A stretch of DNA of 64,000 nucleotides from positions 1,550,001 to 1,614,000 of the forward strand of contig NZ_AP028947.1 in NCBI RefSeq assembly GCF_036323495.1. The letters are read 5' to 3'. Origin of the DNA: Limnobacter thiooxidans. Lineage in GTDB: Bacteria; Pseudomonadota; Gammaproteobacteria; Burkholderiales; Burkholderiaceae_B. The notes beneath the pieces are model-generated. The model was given only the letters and a program-made list of their open reading frames with translations. It did not search any database and was not told the origin of the DNA. The translations under genes were made by a program, and so were the position numbers. Shown piece by piece: positions 16,696 to 20,831 of this stretch; the first letter of the stretch is position 1, and the number at the start of each line of letters is the position of its first letter.

Positions 16696-16812
16696 ATGCA
16701 GCGCATTTTACACCGCCATGGCCAAAACTGTTAACGCGTATCCCTGTGCCTTTGAATTTTTACGTTTTTAACCCTGCGAGTTTTGCAAAAAGTCAAAATT
16801 AAAAAACGAGCT

Positions 16813-16825
16813 AATCAATAAATAT
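16813..16825 (+). promoter_or_regulatory. Possible IHF site upstream of the sigma-54 promoter
   Basis: AATCAATAAATAT matches the IHF consensus WATCAANNNNTTR with one mismatch, in the AT-rich 80 bases upstream of the -24/-12 element, the usual place for IHF-assisted looping to a sigma-54 activator. Low-specificity motif. Confidence 0.3.
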
Positions 16826-16860: not shown

Positions 16861-16876
16861 TGGCATGCACACTGCA
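16861..16876 (+). promoter_or_regulatory. Sigma-54 (-24/-12) promoter of the ECF sigma gene
   Basis: TGGCATGCACACTGCAA has the invariant GG and GC separated by exactly 10 bases and differs from TGGCACG-N4-TTGCA at two less critical positions. The predicted start, about 16887, leaves a 28-base leader to the ATG at 16915. The rest of the 361-base gap from 16554 holds the terminator, the tRNA and an AT-rich stretch. Confidence 0.7.
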
Positions 16877-16914
16877 ACTAGCTTGGTGTCAACCACCAGG
16901 AAACGAGGCAGATC

Positions 16915-17517
16915 ATGACGCAGCACAACCCCTTACAAGCCATTGAAATCAATGTTCAATTCAGTGACGACACTGTTTCTCCACTTACATCCGAACAACT
17001 CAGCTCCCTGGAATTGTTGCTGAAAAGCCAGCAATCCCGTTTGACCCATTTCATACGCAAACACCTTCGTCGTGAAGATTACGTGGACGATCTGATTCAG
17101 CAAACCCACATGGCTGCATTCAGAAACTGGGCACGTTTTCGTGGCGAATCCAAACCCGAAACATGGCTGTTCGGAATTGCATTGAATCTGGTCAAGAACT
17201 TCCGTTATCGCGACACCAGCTACCGTTACCAATGTGAAGACTTCGATGAACAGGTCAGCATGATTGCCGCTGATCCATTTTGTGAACCTGAAGAATCACT
17301 GATGCGTCAGGAACGCATGGAATCACTGAAAATGGCCATTGGCCACTTGCCCAGCAAAATGCAAACCGTGGTTCAACTCGTGTTGCTTGACGGGTTTACC
17401 TATCAGGACGCAGCGCTTGAACTCGATTTGCCAATCGGTACCGTACGTTCACGCCTGTCCCGCGCGCGTGACATGCTGCGAGTTGAAGTACTGGGGCAAA
17501 CAGAAATTTCGCATTAA
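16915..17517 (+). CDS. ECF sigma factor, HrpL-like
   Basis: 200-residue sigma-70 family protein with only regions 2 and 4. Region 2 spans about residues 36-100 (HFIRKHL, VDDLIQQTHMAAFRNWARFRG, TWLFGIALNLVKN) and region 4 about 135-190 (LPSKMQTVVQLVLLDGFTY, then LDLPIGTVRSRLSRAR). No anti-sigma gene is adjacent. A sigma-54 promoter in front, a sigma-54 activator gene behind and an hrp-box promoter further on mirror the HrpR/S-HrpL cascade, so I read this as an HrpL-like (ECF32-type) sigma factor. It is similar to the second ECF protein encoded at 20033-20608. The family is certain, the HrpL role is inference. Confidence 0.85.
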   Translation: MTQHNPLQAIEINVQFSDDTVSPLTSEQLSSLELLLKSQQSRLTHFIRKHLRREDYVDDLIQQTHMAAFRNWARFRGESKPETWLFGIALNLVKNFRYRDTSYRYQCEDFDEQVSMIAADPFCEPEESLMRQERMESLKMAIGHLPSKMQTVVQLVLLDGFTYQDAALELDLPIGTVRSRLSRARDMLRVEVLGQTEISH

Positions 17518-17625
17518 TGACCTCCAGCAAAACCGACCCATTCGGTGGGACTAATTCAAAGAGGTGATACGGGTTGTGGGTCAACGCTTCACAATGTCAT
17601 TTGACGATTCTGAGCTTGATAACCC

Positions 17626-18960
17626 ATGACCGAACTCACCTTGTGCATTGAATCCGAGGAGCTCAAAAGCCGTTTGCGGGCAGCCGCCATGTTGATGCAG
17701 GCCAGCGTTCATGAATTGTCTCTGACCGAATTGCTGAGCCGGCGCACATTGCCTAGCCACTGGATACTTCTTGACCATGGTCTTGAGGCAATCACTGCCT
17801 TGGTTGAGCGATTCAAAGAATTGGGTCGACACCCGGAAAGCCAGATCATTCGCTTTATTGACAGTCCCTGGCAAGACTACATCTATCACGACATTCCAAT
17901 TTTTGCGTCAATTGTTCGTCCCGCTGATCCACTAAGCGCAGCGCAGATACTGGGAAGATTAAGCCGCACGAAACCCCTGAGGTTTGGACTTAAAGCCACA
18001 GCCGCAGACCTGAACGGCCCTTATGCTACCGAGTTTGTTCGCTCACCACCCATGAAGCATGCAGTGTCTCAATTGCACTTGCTCAAACAATTACCCGTGG
18101 ACACGGTTCTGCTGGGCCCAACAGGAGCAGGCAAAGACACTGCAGCACGTTGGCTGCATTCACAGTCTGGTCTGAAAGGTGAATTCATTCATGTGAATTG
18201 TGCCGCCTTGCCTGAACAGCTTTTTGAAGCCGAGCTGTTTGGTGTCATGGCCGGTGCATTCACCGGCGCTCAGAAAGACAGACCAGGCAAGCTGGAGCAA
18301 GCCAACAACGGCACCTTGTACCTGGATGAAATCGACAGTTTGCCCCTATCATCTCAGGCCAAGTTGCTCAATGCACTTCAATACCGGGGTGCATCCCGCC
18401 TTGGCGGCCACGCCTTTTACCAGTCCAGCTTCAGGGTGATAGCCTCGACCAAGGCCAGTTTTCCCGAGTTGGTCAGGCAAAACCGCTTCAGGGAAGACCT
18501 TCATTTTCGCCTCAGTGTGTCTCAGGTCAAAATTCCGGCCTTGGCTGAAAGGCTCGAAGACATTGTTCCCCTTTATCAACATTTCCTGGCGCAGGTCGCA
18601 ACACAATTCAAGCTGGAAGTACCCGCACTGGGCACCGAGGAAATGGATGAACTGCTCAGCAGACCCTGGCAAGGCAATGTCCGTGAGCTGCATGCCGTGG
18701 CCCAGCGCCATGTGATTGGTCTGGGCTCACCTTGTGACAGCCAGGAGCAAGGTCATGTACATTCCTCAGGACTTAAGCACCGCTTGCTGGCGTTTGAAAA
18801 GGCAGTGTTGTCCCAAGCCTTGCTGGCGCATGGCGGTTGTGCACGAAGCGCCAGTGAAAGTCTGCAGATTCCTTTGCATTCCATGTACTACCGAATGAAA
18901 CGTTTCGATTTGCTGGAGAAGTTCGGGAACCATTCAGAAAACGCTGCCACTCAACTCTAA
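17626..18960 (+). CDS. Sigma-54-dependent transcription activator (bacterial enhancer-binding protein)
   Basis: 444 residues. Residues 1-115 form a poorly conserved N-terminal domain, perhaps a degenerate receiver, with no clear phospho-site. The AAA+ domain has Walker A GPTGAGKD (164-171), the sigma-54 contact loop GAFTGA (210-215), Walker B GTLYLDEID (229-237) and the arginine-finger region FREDLHFRLS (288-297). A Fis-type helix-turn-helix ends the protein (ARSASESLQIPLHSMYYRMKR). It is likely to activate the sigma-54 promoter 0.7 kb upstream, as HrpR/HrpS do for hrpL. The ribosome site is weak. The last 35 bases contain the hrp box of the next gene. Confidence 0.88.
   Translation: MTELTLCIESEELKSRLRAAAMLMQASVHELSLTELLSRRTLPSHWILLDHGLEAITALVERFKELGRHPESQIIRFIDSPWQDYIYHDIPIFASIVRPADPLSAAQILGRLSRTKPLRFGLKATAADLNGPYATEFVRSPPMKHAVSQLHLLKQLPVDTVLLGPTGAGKDTAARWLHSQSGLKGEFIHVNCAALPEQLFEAELFGVMAGAFTGAQKDRPGKLEQANNGTLYLDEIDSLPLSSQAKLLNALQYRGASRLGGHAFYQSSFRVIASTKASFPELVRQNRFREDLHFRLSVSQVKIPALAERLEDIVPLYQHFLAQVATQFKLEVPALGTEEMDELLSRPWQGNVRELHAVAQRHVIGLGSPCDSQEQGHVHSSGLKHRLLAFEKAVLSQALLAHGGCARSASESLQIPLHSMYYRMKRFDLLEKFGNHSENAATQL
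18926..18953 (+). promoter_or_regulatory. Hrp box: perfect HrpL-type promoter
   Basis: GGAACC, 15 bases, CCACTCA: an exact match to the HrpL consensus GGAACC-N15/16-CCACNNA. It lies inside the 3' end of the activator gene and ends 25 bases before the ATG of the 76-residue protein. By chance such a match (10 fixed bases, two spacings) is expected only rarely in a window this size. Confidence 0.75.
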
Positions 18961-18978
18961 CTAACAGGCGACTTTTAT

Positions 18979-19209
18979 ATGAATATTCCAAACAACTTTG
19001 CCAGTGTTCATGCCCTGGTCAATTTGCAATCTTCCCCGGCCAACAACGCATCGCCGGCACAAGCCACATTTCGCAGCGTAATGAGTCAACTTCAATCCAA
19101 ACCGCTCAAGCTTTCGACAAGCCAACTGCATGCGCAAAGTCGCGGTAATGGCGGTTCTCGGTCAGTGTCCCAGCAAGTGTTTCAAGACACTGCCGGTGTG
19201 CTACGTTAA
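18979..19209 (+). CDS. Small Ser/Asn/Gln-rich protein, candidate type III secreted protein
   Basis: 76 residues starting MNIPNNFASV, ATG behind AGGCGA. It carries a single acidic residue (one Asp, near position 70), many Ser, Gln and Asn, and no signal peptide or membrane helix. The N-terminus meets the three empirical rules for type III substrates of Pseudomonas syringae: aliphatic or Pro at positions 3-4 (Ile3, Pro4), no acidic residue in the first 12, and high Ser (9 of the first 50). A perfect hrp box precedes it. It could be a pilin, inner-rod, chaperoned effector or regulator; no homologue is recognised. The gene is real on the strength of promoter, spacing and codon use. Confidence 0.6.
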   Translation: MNIPNNFASVHALVNLQSSPANNASPAQATFRSVMSQLQSKPLKLSTSQLHAQSRGNGGSRSVSQQVFQDTAGVLR

Positions 19210-19229
19210 CCCTTGATGAGCAACCCTGC

Positions 19230-19577
19230 ATGAACACGTGCACGGCTCCTCCCATCGCTGCCAATTGGTATCTGCTTGAGAGTTGCTGTGTGGATGGTTT
19301 GGGTTTGGGACAACTTTGGCAGTCGGGCTCCAGCCCAGTTTTGTTCAAGGCCCAAATTGTGCTCAACAACTACGAAAGTAACTGCTTGCGCGACTGGCTT
19401 TCACAGCGCTGGAAGGCGCGTTCGCTGGAGCGAACAACAATTGCACTTCAACATGATCAACGCTTGATGTTGAATTTACCACTTGAGGCCGCTTCAATTC
19501 AAAAGGCTGTGGAACAGTTTCGCATCTGGCTTTCATCCACGCTCAAAGAGCGTGAGCAGGCGCTTCAGGCCCGATAA
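19230..19577 (+). CDS. Unknown 115-residue protein following the hrp-box gene
   Basis: Begins 20 bases after the previous stop and is probably in the same transcript. The sequence starts MNTCTAPPIAANWYLLESCC, without a signal peptide, has a mixed central part and ends in a long amphipathic helix (AVEQFRIWLSSTLKEREQALQ). An alpha-beta pattern and small size would fit a secretion-system accessory or chaperone, but I recognise no family. The ribosome site is weak (TTGATGAG). Confidence 0.5.
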   Translation: MNTCTAPPIAANWYLLESCCVDGLGLGQLWQSGSSPVLFKAQIVLNNYESNCLRDWLSQRWKARSLERTTIALQHDQRLMLNLPLEAASIQKAVEQFRIWLSSTLKEREQALQAR

Positions 19578-19604
19578 CCGATAAGTTACGAGCTGAACTG
19601 GCGT

Positions 19605-20033
19605 TTAACTGGTTCTATGTTTCAGATAAGTTTGTTTGTAGGCAAATGCCACATGTACAAAACCGTGGAACTGCTTCATCAATTGCTCAGCGTTTGTGTC
19701 CGCGATTTCGATGCAAATTCGTAAACAGTTGTCGTGGTCGGAAATTCCAAGAGAAATACATTCAGGCAGGTCATCGATCAACTCTGAGAACAGTTGTATC
19801 GCCCGTTTCAGTTGTTGCTCTTGAACCTGAAGCGATTTTCCCAGATTAAAAACCCGCGCGCTGATGCGGCAATCTTGCGTAAATCCGCGTTGAATTTCAA
19901 TAGTGAATTGTTCTTCGAAATCGATTCGGTAGGCATCAGACTCTGCGGCGCTTTCAACATCGTGGGTGCTTAGTCCCAACGCATCAAGAATTTTGGCCAA
20001 GGCGCCACCCAAGGGGGCAGTTGTGTCGGTCAT
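19605..20033 (-). CDS. CesT-like type III secretion chaperone
   Basis: 142-residue acidic cytoplasmic protein. An N-terminal helix (ALAKILDALGLSTHDV) is followed by beta strands (YRIDFEEQFTIEIQRG, CRISARVFNLG), a helix (QQLKRAIQLFSELIDDLP), another strand pair (CISLGISDHDNCLRICIEI) and a C-terminal helix (NAEQLMKQFHGFVHVAFAYKQ). That helix-strand order is that of class I type III chaperones (CesT/SycE fold). Its ATG overlaps the stop of the ECF sigma gene (TGATG), showing translational coupling. The effector it would serve is unknown, and the assignment rests on pattern, not on a search. Confidence 0.55.
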   Translation of the reverse strand: MTDTTAPLGGALAKILDALGLSTHDVESAAESDAYRIDFEEQFTIEIQRGFTQDCRISARVFNLGKSLQVQEQQLKRAIQLFSELIDDLPECISLGISDHDNCLRICIEIADTNAEQLMKQFHGFVHVAFAYKQTYLKHRTS

Positions 20034-20608
20034 CAGTCCATGTACAGATCGTAAATTGACTTCAGCTGAGCGCGCGATCTTGAAATGCGTGACCTAACTG
20101 TTCCAATTGGGATGCCCAGAATATCTGCAGCTTTCTGGTAAGAGTTGCCGTGTTGAACCACTAAAATCAGGGTTTCGCGCAAGTCGTTGGGCAATTTGTC
20201 TATCGCAGATTGAAGTTTGATGCTGAATTCGTTTTTCATGCAATGTTGCATGGGGTCAGACCCTTCCGCCTGTTCCAGCTCAAGGTCTTCATCGGAGGTG
20301 AAATGGAATTTGTACTGGGGCGAACGCCTAGCCGTGTTCCGAATGATATTCAAGGCAATGCCGAACAGCCAGGTAGCGCGTTTAGCGTCGCCGCGGAAAC
20401 TGTCCCAGCAGCAATAGGCCTCGATCAAGGTTTGCTGGAAAACATCTTCCACAGCATTTTCGTCGCGGAAATGCTTGATGATGAAATTGCGAAGGCGTTT
20501 TTCCTGCTTGGCCACGAGCAGTTCGAATTCAGAGCGAGTGGCTTCCAATTTCTCCCGAGAACACCGCTGTATCGCAGTGATCTTCATATTGGGTGCAATC
20601 GGTTTCAT
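20033..20608 (-). CDS. Second ECF sigma factor, paralogue of the HrpL-like sigma
   Basis: 191 residues when started at the ATG at 20608, which has AGAGAGG seven bases upstream; the frame is open to 20716 but the extension has no ribosome site. Region 2 (LRNFIIKHFRDENAVEDVFQQT, TWLFGIALNIIRN) and region 4 (LPNDLRETLILVVQHGNSY, ILGIPIGTVRSRISRSR) parallel the factor at 16915, including the shared FRG.K..TWLFGIALN signature. It is co-transcribed with the CesT-like gene and preceded by an hrp-box-like promoter, suggesting that one sigma factor controls the other or that it autoregulates. Confidence 0.85.
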   Translation of the reverse strand: MKPIAPNMKITAIQRCSREKLEATRSEFELLVAKQEKRLRNFIIKHFRDENAVEDVFQQTLIEAYCCWDSFRGDAKRATWLFGIALNIIRNTARRSPQYKFHFTSDEDLELEQAEGSDPMQHCMKNEFSIKLQSAIDKLPNDLRETLILVVQHGNSYQKAADILGIPIGTVRSRISRSRAQLKSIYDLYMD

Positions 20609-20751
20609 ATCGAGCCTCTCTGCTTGAAACGGCAACGGAATCATGGTCGGCCTCGGCGAATTTCTTGGTAACGGCACAGGGTAACAAGGCCGCTGAAATT
20701 GCGCATTTGGTGTCACTAGAGAGGGGGGTGAGGTAGCCTTTCGCTAGGGCA

Positions 20752-20803
20752 AACTGTGAAATCGTGCTAGCTGCTGCATGCCCGTCGTCCCTTCTTCACA
20801 GTT
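20752..20803. other. Inverted repeat in the leader of the second ECF gene
   Basis: AACTGTGAA at 20752-20760 and TTCACAGTT at 20795-20803 form a perfect 9-bp inverted repeat with a 34-base spacer. It lies just downstream of the reverse-strand hrp-box-like promoter, so it could be an RNA hairpin or a repressor site. Confidence 0.4.
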
Positions 20804-20831
20804 GAGTGCAGTCACAATCCACGATGGTTCC
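20803..20831 (-). promoter_or_regulatory. Hrp-box-like promoter of the second ECF/chaperone operon
   Basis: On the reverse strand: GGAACC, 16 bases, GCACTCA. This matches GGAACC-N16-CCACNNA except for the first base of the -10 half. The leader to the ATG at 20608 would be about 190 bases. Confidence 0.55.

Follow-up and report, generated by a model that had tools for sequence, protein, structure and literature searches.

A putative HrpS-sigma-54-HrpL regulatory module encoded apart from the type III secretion genes of Limnobacter

Gene content and conservation of the locus

The locus studied here lies in a window of 64,000 nucleotides (positions 1550001-1614000) of the 3.54 Mb single-contig genome of Limnobacter thiooxidans (G000; the other genomes compared carry similar G-labels). 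It encodes two extracytoplasmic function (ECF) sigma factors, ECF1 and ECF2, a sigma-54 activator and a 142-amino-acid protein with the predicted fold of a type III secretion system (T3SS) chaperone, together with a sigma-54 promoter and two hrp boxes. Sequence evidence from this and related genomes indicates that the locus is very probably the master regulatory module of the Limnobacter T3SS, whose apparatus is encoded elsewhere on the chromosome. On the forward strand the sigma-54 promoter is followed by ECF1, the activator, an hrp box and two open reading frames (ORFs) of 76 and 115 amino acids, while the second hrp box, ECF2 and the 142-amino-acid gene are arranged convergently to them. 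The original prediction had listed the promoter, the two ECF genes, the activator, the two boxes and the 142-amino-acid gene, and all of them are present; the two small ORFs, both downstream of the first box, come in addition. The features are given below in window positions.

16808..16823, + strand: conserved AT-rich element GAGYTAATCAANAAAT ahead of the sigma-54 promoter, visible on inspection in 11 of 16 upstream regions; a possible integration host factor (IHF) or activator site
16861..16876, + strand: sigma-54 promoter TGGCATGCACACTGCA of ECF1, TGGCATG-N4-CTGCA, 54 bp upstream of ECF1
16915..17517, + strand: ECF1, HrpL-family ECF sigma factor of 200 amino acids (by Pfam, a search with Erwinia mallotivora HrpL, and tree)
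17626..18960, + strand: HrpS-like sigma-54 activator of 444 amino acids (by Pfam, a search with an Erwinia HrpS-type protein, and tree)
18926..18953, + strand: hrp box GGAACC-N15-CCACTCA, inside the 3'-terminal part of the activator gene, 53 bp ahead of the 76-amino-acid ORF
18979..19209, + strand: 76-amino-acid ORF, weakly conserved and with no assigned function
19230..19577, + strand: 115-amino-acid product that may be another small chaperone-like protein (weak likeness)
19605..20033, - strand: 142-amino-acid protein with the predicted class I T3SS chaperone fold (ExsC/SicP/CesT type; AlphaFold2 and Foldseek), in 14 of 14 genus loci
20033..20716, - strand: ECF2, second HrpL-family ECF sigma factor (by Pfam and tree), start more likely at the ATG at 20644
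20803..20831, - strand: hrp box GGAACC-N16-GCACTCA, intergenic, upstream of ECF2

The gene order is conserved in all 14 Limnobacter genomes that contain the activator; BLASTP at E <= 0.01 finds the 76-amino-acid ORF in 12 of these 14 loci, our own included, and has no match in the other two. The activator itself has no match in two assemblies of the genus, G002 (85% complete) and G010 (65% complete). In a second genus (G027 and G065) the ECF-activator pair is directly followed by a GyrB/ParE-type gene, and the 115-amino-acid, 142-amino-acid and ECF2 genes are missing there. A further genome, G102, represents another family of the same order.

ECF sigma factors and the sigma-54 promoter

The sigma-54 promoter predicted ahead of the first ECF gene was confirmed by its conservation in 16 of 16 loci, namely our own, those of 13 other members of the genus and two of the other genus. 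In the whole genome the pattern TGGCAYN5YTGCA occurs 21 times, versus 3 for its backward control. Within 350 bp upstream, no hrp box precedes ECF1 and no sigma-54 site precedes ECF2 in any of the 14 genus loci. The called start of ECF2 is probably too early, because the called length of its relatives is 203 amino acids in 8 of 13 cases; the ATG at 20644, 187 bp from the box, is the more likely start. Relative to our ECF2, identity is 92-99% in 10 and 73-77% in 3 of the 13 other genus loci.

By homology and phylogeny, ECF1 and ECF2 are HrpL-family sigma factors that group with mostly T3SS-linked HrpL-type proteins. ECF1 contains the Pfam domains Sigma70_r2 and r4_2, both above cut-off, and many of its relatives that carry an organism name are from Limnobacter. 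The two factors are about 41% identical across 150 residues and have the region 4 stretch PIGTVRSR in common. When HrpL of Erwinia mallotivora was searched against our genome, the best match was ECF1 with 97.7 bits, followed by ECF2 with 86.4 and by a further ECF factor with 76.1. A tree of 109 ECF rows placed ECF1 and ECF2 in one clade (100/91), with one metagenome row (L236) inside it. This clade is nested in a larger one of 85 rows (100/99) with other members from Pseudomonas, Erwinia, Pectobacterium, Pantoea and further taxa, among them 51 rows linked to a T3SS and 4 not so linked, which supports the idea of two HrpL-like factors. The rows were picked by similarity, with few outgroups, and five of the 80 named HrpL-type loci (L194, L202, L207, L208 and L210) were excluded because rows already present duplicated them. 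At least two sct genes occur in the stretch fetched for 61 of the 80 loci. Within 350 bp around the ECF match, these 80 loci have a sigma-54 site in 32 cases and an hrp box in only 4, all of which are ECF2 genes of the Limnobacter type.

HrpS-like activator

The GAFTGA-type sigma-54 activator expected behind ECF1 was likewise corroborated. It contains the GAFTGA motif, the Pfam domain Sigma54_activat (E 3.4e-51) and a Pfam helix-turn-helix domain. With an HrpS-type activator of Erwinia mallotivora as query, the locus activator is the top match in our genome at 231.5 bits, the runner-up reaching 190. In a tree of 30 rows, a single clade (100/99) unites the locus activators with T3SS-linked HrpS proteins, and six other activators of our genome and two unlinked ones fall apart from it. 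The activator is HrpS-like by these comparisons and groups with T3SS-linked HrpS.

Ahead of the AAA+ domain the protein carries an N-terminal domain of about 135 amino acids (window 17626-18040), which is well conserved in the genus (for instance, the stretch YHDIPIFASIV). No Pfam family matches this domain, and a profile search of the PDB gave a best E value of 0.11 and no sequence relative. Most of it is missing from the activator homologue of G102 (336 amino acids). HrpR and HrpS are not known to have an N-terminal regulatory domain; since the Limnobacter protein has an extra one, we call it HrpS-like and not plainly HrpS.

Chaperone-fold protein

For the 142-amino-acid protein, originally described as CesT-like, a class I (CesT/SycE) T3SS chaperone fold is predicted; the assignment comes from structure prediction and comparison and not from a sequence match. 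Its AlphaFold2 model, built from 34 sequences, has a mean predicted local distance difference test score (pLDDT) of 87.1, a predicted template modelling score (pTM) of 0.81 and the secondary structure a-bbb-a-bb-a. All 14 Foldseek matches in the PDB at E <= 0.001 are T3SS chaperones, the best being ExsC at 14% identity. Searches of Pfam and NCBIfam and a further sequence search found no match to CesT or any other chaperone family. A search of about 5.8 billion proteins gave 56 homologues at E <= 0.001. Only two of these bear an organism name, Limnobacter in both cases, and a relative from L. parvus (P0043) is named 'Type III secretion system chaperone' in one source. The start of the 142-amino-acid gene overlaps the end of ECF2, and the two genes therefore probably form one operon. 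The 115-amino-acid protein was modelled with a pLDDT of 87.4, and its likeness to chaperones is weak.

hrp boxes at the locus

Both of the hrp-box matches seen originally are kept in all 14 genus genomes, the strict pattern being found in 12 of 14 at each site; the relaxed pattern gave a few additional matches in the genus loci. The box upstream of ECF2 is intergenic and its spacers vary among the genomes, and in 8 of 14 it lies 187-189 bp from the called ECF2 start. The conservation of the box at 18926 may be partly coding, because the activator gene extends across that box at its 3' end. As a bare pattern, a single match to GGAACC-N15/16-CCAC in the window is unremarkable, since at least one occurred in 27 of 100 shuffles. 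It is the conservation of both local boxes in 14 of 14 genomes that makes them more than chance matches.

Type III secretion genes and their hrp boxes

The original prediction described the cascade as being without an apparatus, which proved wrong at the level of the genome: a non-flagellar T3SS cluster is found in the same chromosome at about 3.357 to 3.382 Mb, some 1.8 Mb from the window, and the possibility of no apparatus in the genome was rejected. The genome encodes two FHIPEP proteins, one flagellar and one non-flagellar as judged by score and neighbours. Above the Pfam cut-off, the cluster contains YscJ/FliF, HrpE/YscL, a secretin, FlhB/YscU, a FliN-type SctQ, an EscN-type ATPase and FHIPEP, and below it a YscD-like match and a match to an SseC-like translocator. 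SctR, SctS and SctT were assigned by sequence and gene order, and BLAST matches stand at the corresponding places in G102.

Across the genus, non-flagellar sctV was found in 14 of 16 genomes. No ECF or activator homologue occurs in the T3SS stretches of 14 relatives (at most 20 kb each, several of them covering only part of the cluster) or in our own stretches L003-L006. In G102, by comparison, homologues of both regulators lie within the T3SS cluster, that of the activator next to sctU and that of the ECF factor next to sctC; a sigma-54 site precedes the ECF gene by 137 bp, and the cluster has three hrp boxes.

The suggestion that the locus might control a remote one gained substance from this gene set and from the hrp boxes ahead of its operons. 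In 13 of 15 genomes, our own included, an hrp box lies 65-97 bp upstream of the sctV start (12 of these boxes are strict), whereas shuffles predict 0.06 such boxes and the backward pattern gives 0. A box was also found ahead of p150, the gene before sctJ, in our genome (relaxed pattern) and in G007, and boxes precede other ORFs of the T3SS stretches in G014, G065 and G011. As a positive control, 18 loci picked by us from the 80 named HrpL/T3SS loci (369 kb) contain 55 boxes versus 1 match of the backward pattern.

The sctJ operon is immediately preceded (L005:14789-16722) by two genes, one resembling MotA/ExbB with a Pfam score under the cut-off and the other resembling MotB/OmpA. In G001, G003 and G007 an hrp box of its own precedes the MotA-like gene by 50-62 bp. 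A stator-like pair of the MotA/MotB type looks unusual in a T3SS regulon.

Conservation differs between regulators and apparatus. Relative to our genome, the activator of G009 is 91% identical versus 56% for SctV, and in G011 the values are 77% versus 42%. Since the regulatory module is better conserved than SctV, these comparisons suggest that the apparatus was exchanged, or diverged fast, beneath a stable regulator.

Candidate regulon

In our genome, 10 of the 28 strict boxes are intergenic and stand 35-120 bp ahead of an ORF that has 100 amino acids or more, compared with 26 of 1500 random positions (1.7%; binomial P 2.4e-11), the latter being drawn without matching base composition from the window and four further stretches of our genome (about 143 kb or 4% of the genome, T3SS region and local locus included). 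A Pfam scan covered nine ORFs of our genome that follow a box and one such ORF of G005. L089, L090, L091, L094 and L095 have no Pfam domain above cut-off and begin with sequences rich in Ser, Thr, Gln and Pro, although some are cut by the end of the stretch; L096, outside the Pfam scan, resembles them in appearance. We judge such ORFs to be effector-like candidates from their composition and the box ahead of them.

Several other genes behind boxes were noted. A PEP-carboxylase-like ORF with a Ser-rich start (L105:1721-3028) is found 220 bp behind a box. A membrane protein of the GGDEF (diguanylate cyclase) type is encoded 56 bp downstream of a box in G000, G008 and G005 (L097, L136 and L145; Pfam assignment in G000 only), a possible link between the HrpL regulon and cyclic di-GMP. 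A 153-amino-acid protein, without a Pfam family in G000, is encoded 59 bp behind a box in both G000 and G005 (L106 and L162), and in G008 a similar box (L133) has no ORF called behind it. Box-preceded effector-like ORFs are still there in G005, one of two genus assemblies in which neither sctV nor sctJ was found.

Proposed cascade and alternative explanations

The cascade from HrpS through sigma-54 and HrpL to hrp boxes, as originally proposed, is supported by the ECF clade, the HrpS clade, the sct genes, the boxes before T3SS operons and the CesT/SycE-type fold predicted for the 142-amino-acid protein. Box positions, gene order and protein families are read from the sequence itself; which ECF factor reads which box we infer. 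In the proposed scheme, the HrpS-like activator and sigma-54 RNA polymerase would drive the ECF1 promoter, as homology and the conservation of the promoter suggest, and the activator's signal would perhaps be sensed by its extra N-terminal domain. ECF1 would then read hrp boxes and switch on ECF2 with the 142-amino-acid gene, the 76- and 115-amino-acid genes, the remote sct operons and the scattered effector-like genes. ECF2, as a second HrpL, could relay, amplify or prolong the signal, and the 142-amino-acid protein might serve as an effector chaperone or as a regulator coupled to secretion.

Several observations weigh against this interpretation. Another ECF factor of our genome is only 10 bits below ECF2 as a match of Erwinia HrpL, ECF1 and ECF2 may, by a warning of the tree program, be joined through a long-branch effect, and 11 ECF factors that are linked to T3SS genes, mostly of Achromobacter, Bordetella and kin, fall outside the HrpL-type clade. 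Regulators and apparatus do not always occur together: G005 (100% complete) and G015 (93%), both metagenome-assembled genomes (MAGs), retain the whole locus without a match to sctV or sctJ, and in the incomplete G002 and G010 sctV was found and the activator was not. No hrp box precedes sctV in G011 and G065, and 5 of the 15 T3SS stretches have no box 25-200 bp before an ORF, the sctV start lying at or beyond the edge in some of them. The expectation of further boxes in the genome held in part. Their placement before T3SS operons and their conservation stood, but the strict box is not enriched by count, with 28 matches versus 59 of the backward pattern in our genome and 26 versus 35 and 23 versus 58 in further counts. 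Placement is also less telling in relatives: in G008 no more than 4 of 26 boxes have a suitable position, two of them before FolD-like and RadC-like ORFs, and in G005 it is 6 of 22, one before a FolD-like ORF (one of 23 loci was dropped because it was not re-found). What distinguishes the hrp boxes is thus where they lie and how well they are kept, and not their number.

A more elaborate form of the cascade can be put forward only tentatively. It is a two-tier relay in which ECF1 would fire the ECF2 box, ECF2 would sustain the regulon, and the ExsC-like protein, perhaps with the 115-amino-acid one, would sense secretion and switch the second tier; the module would be inherited vertically, with T3SS apparatuses of different lineage being exchanged beneath it and each gaining hrp boxes. 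It is conceivable, though we rather doubt it, that only one ECF factor reads hrp boxes and the other has its own targets, giving a branched circuit without an HrpL relay. The identity of just about 41% between the two factors would fit such a division of labour, as would the single ECF gene beside the activator in the second genus and the stricter conservation of ECF2 (92-99%) than of ECF1 (77-97%) across the same ten nearer genus loci. Against a branched circuit, both factors belong to the HrpL-type clade and have PIGTVRSR in common, and the conserved hrp box of ECF2 ties that gene to an HrpL-type reader, possibly ECF2 itself.

The main job of the module might also not, or no longer, be the T3SS, but genes for surface or lifestyle traits, for example the GGDEF gene behind a box, with the T3SS as an optional client; we consider this improbable. 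The persistence of the locus in G005 and G015, the shared boxes of the GGDEF-type and 153-amino-acid genes, and the conservation of the regulators while SctV varies all point in that direction. On the other hand, the wide occurrence of non-flagellar sctV in the genus and the boxes at 13 of the 15 sctV genes examined argue for a T3SS function, G005 retains its effector-like ORFs behind boxes, and the lack of T3SS genes in two MAGs may be a recent loss or a binning gap. Finally, a generic pair of ECF and NtrC-type regulators with chance hrp-box matches was rejected as scarcely credible: bare box counts do not exceed controls and the 25 NCBIfam families listed for each ECF factor are all general ECF families, but footprints in 14 of 14 genomes, boxes in 13 of 15 sctV upstream regions and both the ECF and the activator trees contradict it. 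A master regulatory module of the T3SS remains the reading that we prefer.

Comparison with known systems

Type III genes of Limnobacter have been recorded before. The T3SS of strain MED105 is listed in a table of PMC2702493; T3SS contigs from Ostreococcus cultures are placed by PMC4224133 as a sister group of Hrp1, not inside it, with Herbaspirillum seropedicae closest; and homologues noted in PMC4557100 include some thought to be possibly flagellar. The passages concerned in these three papers do not address regulation. Autogenous control of HrpL is the topic of PMC5263251. In the open-licence PMC literature we found no paper on Limnobacter and HrpL together and, with the phrases searched, none on two HrpL paralogues.

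The circuit of HrpS, sigma-54, HrpL and hrp boxes appears in papers on plant-associated bacteria, and here all of its parts are found in an aquatic sulfur-oxidising genus, members of which have been found with cultured marine algae and a sea anemone (PMC4224133, PMC4557100). With candidate effectors marked by the boxes, it becomes directly testable what is injected by Limnobacter and who the recipient is. The genus may also offer a natural example of HrpL duplication and of a regulator that persists while its apparatus diverges or is replaced.

The 142-amino-acid protein recalls the ExsACDE switch of Pseudomonas aeruginosa, in that its best fold match is ExsC and its gene stands beside T3SS-type regulators. 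In the ExsACDE scheme, ExsC couples the regulatory circuit to secretion. The likeness is at the level of the fold only (14% identity), and counterparts of ExsA, ExsD and ExsE were neither identified nor searched for.

The HrpR/HrpS-sigma-54-HrpL-hrp box scheme of Hrp1 (group I) is described in PMC3093359. As in the Hrp1 systems of Pseudomonas syringae, Erwinia and Pantoea, an HrpS-type activator accompanies a sigma-54 promoter before an HrpL-family ECF gene, and hrp boxes precede T3SS operons and scattered effector-like genes. In contrast to Hrp1, the Limnobacter regulators are about 1.8 Mb from the apparatus instead of in or beside the hrc cluster, HrpL is present as two paralogues, of which one has an hrp box ahead of it, the activator carries an additional N-terminal domain, and a chaperone-fold gene follows ECF2. 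Herbaspirillum seropedicae and H. rubrisubalbicans are similar to Limnobacter in having a betaproteobacterial HrpL with hrp boxes; the Herbaspirillum consensus, GGAACC-N15-CCACTCAAT (PMC3487950), has the form of the box at 18926. Unlike in Limnobacter, hrpL of Herbaspirillum stands at the end of the hrp/hrc cluster and regulation is taken to be a hybrid with HrpG, and in H. rubrisubalbicans no sigma-54 promoter was found before hrpL (PMC3487950, PMC3093359). The cascade itself is the known Hrp1 scheme, and HrpL with hrp boxes was already known in betaproteobacteria from Herbaspirillum; apparently new is the arrangement suggested by the Limnobacter sequences, in which two HrpL paralogues would act in series, beside a chaperone-fold gene and detached from the apparatus.

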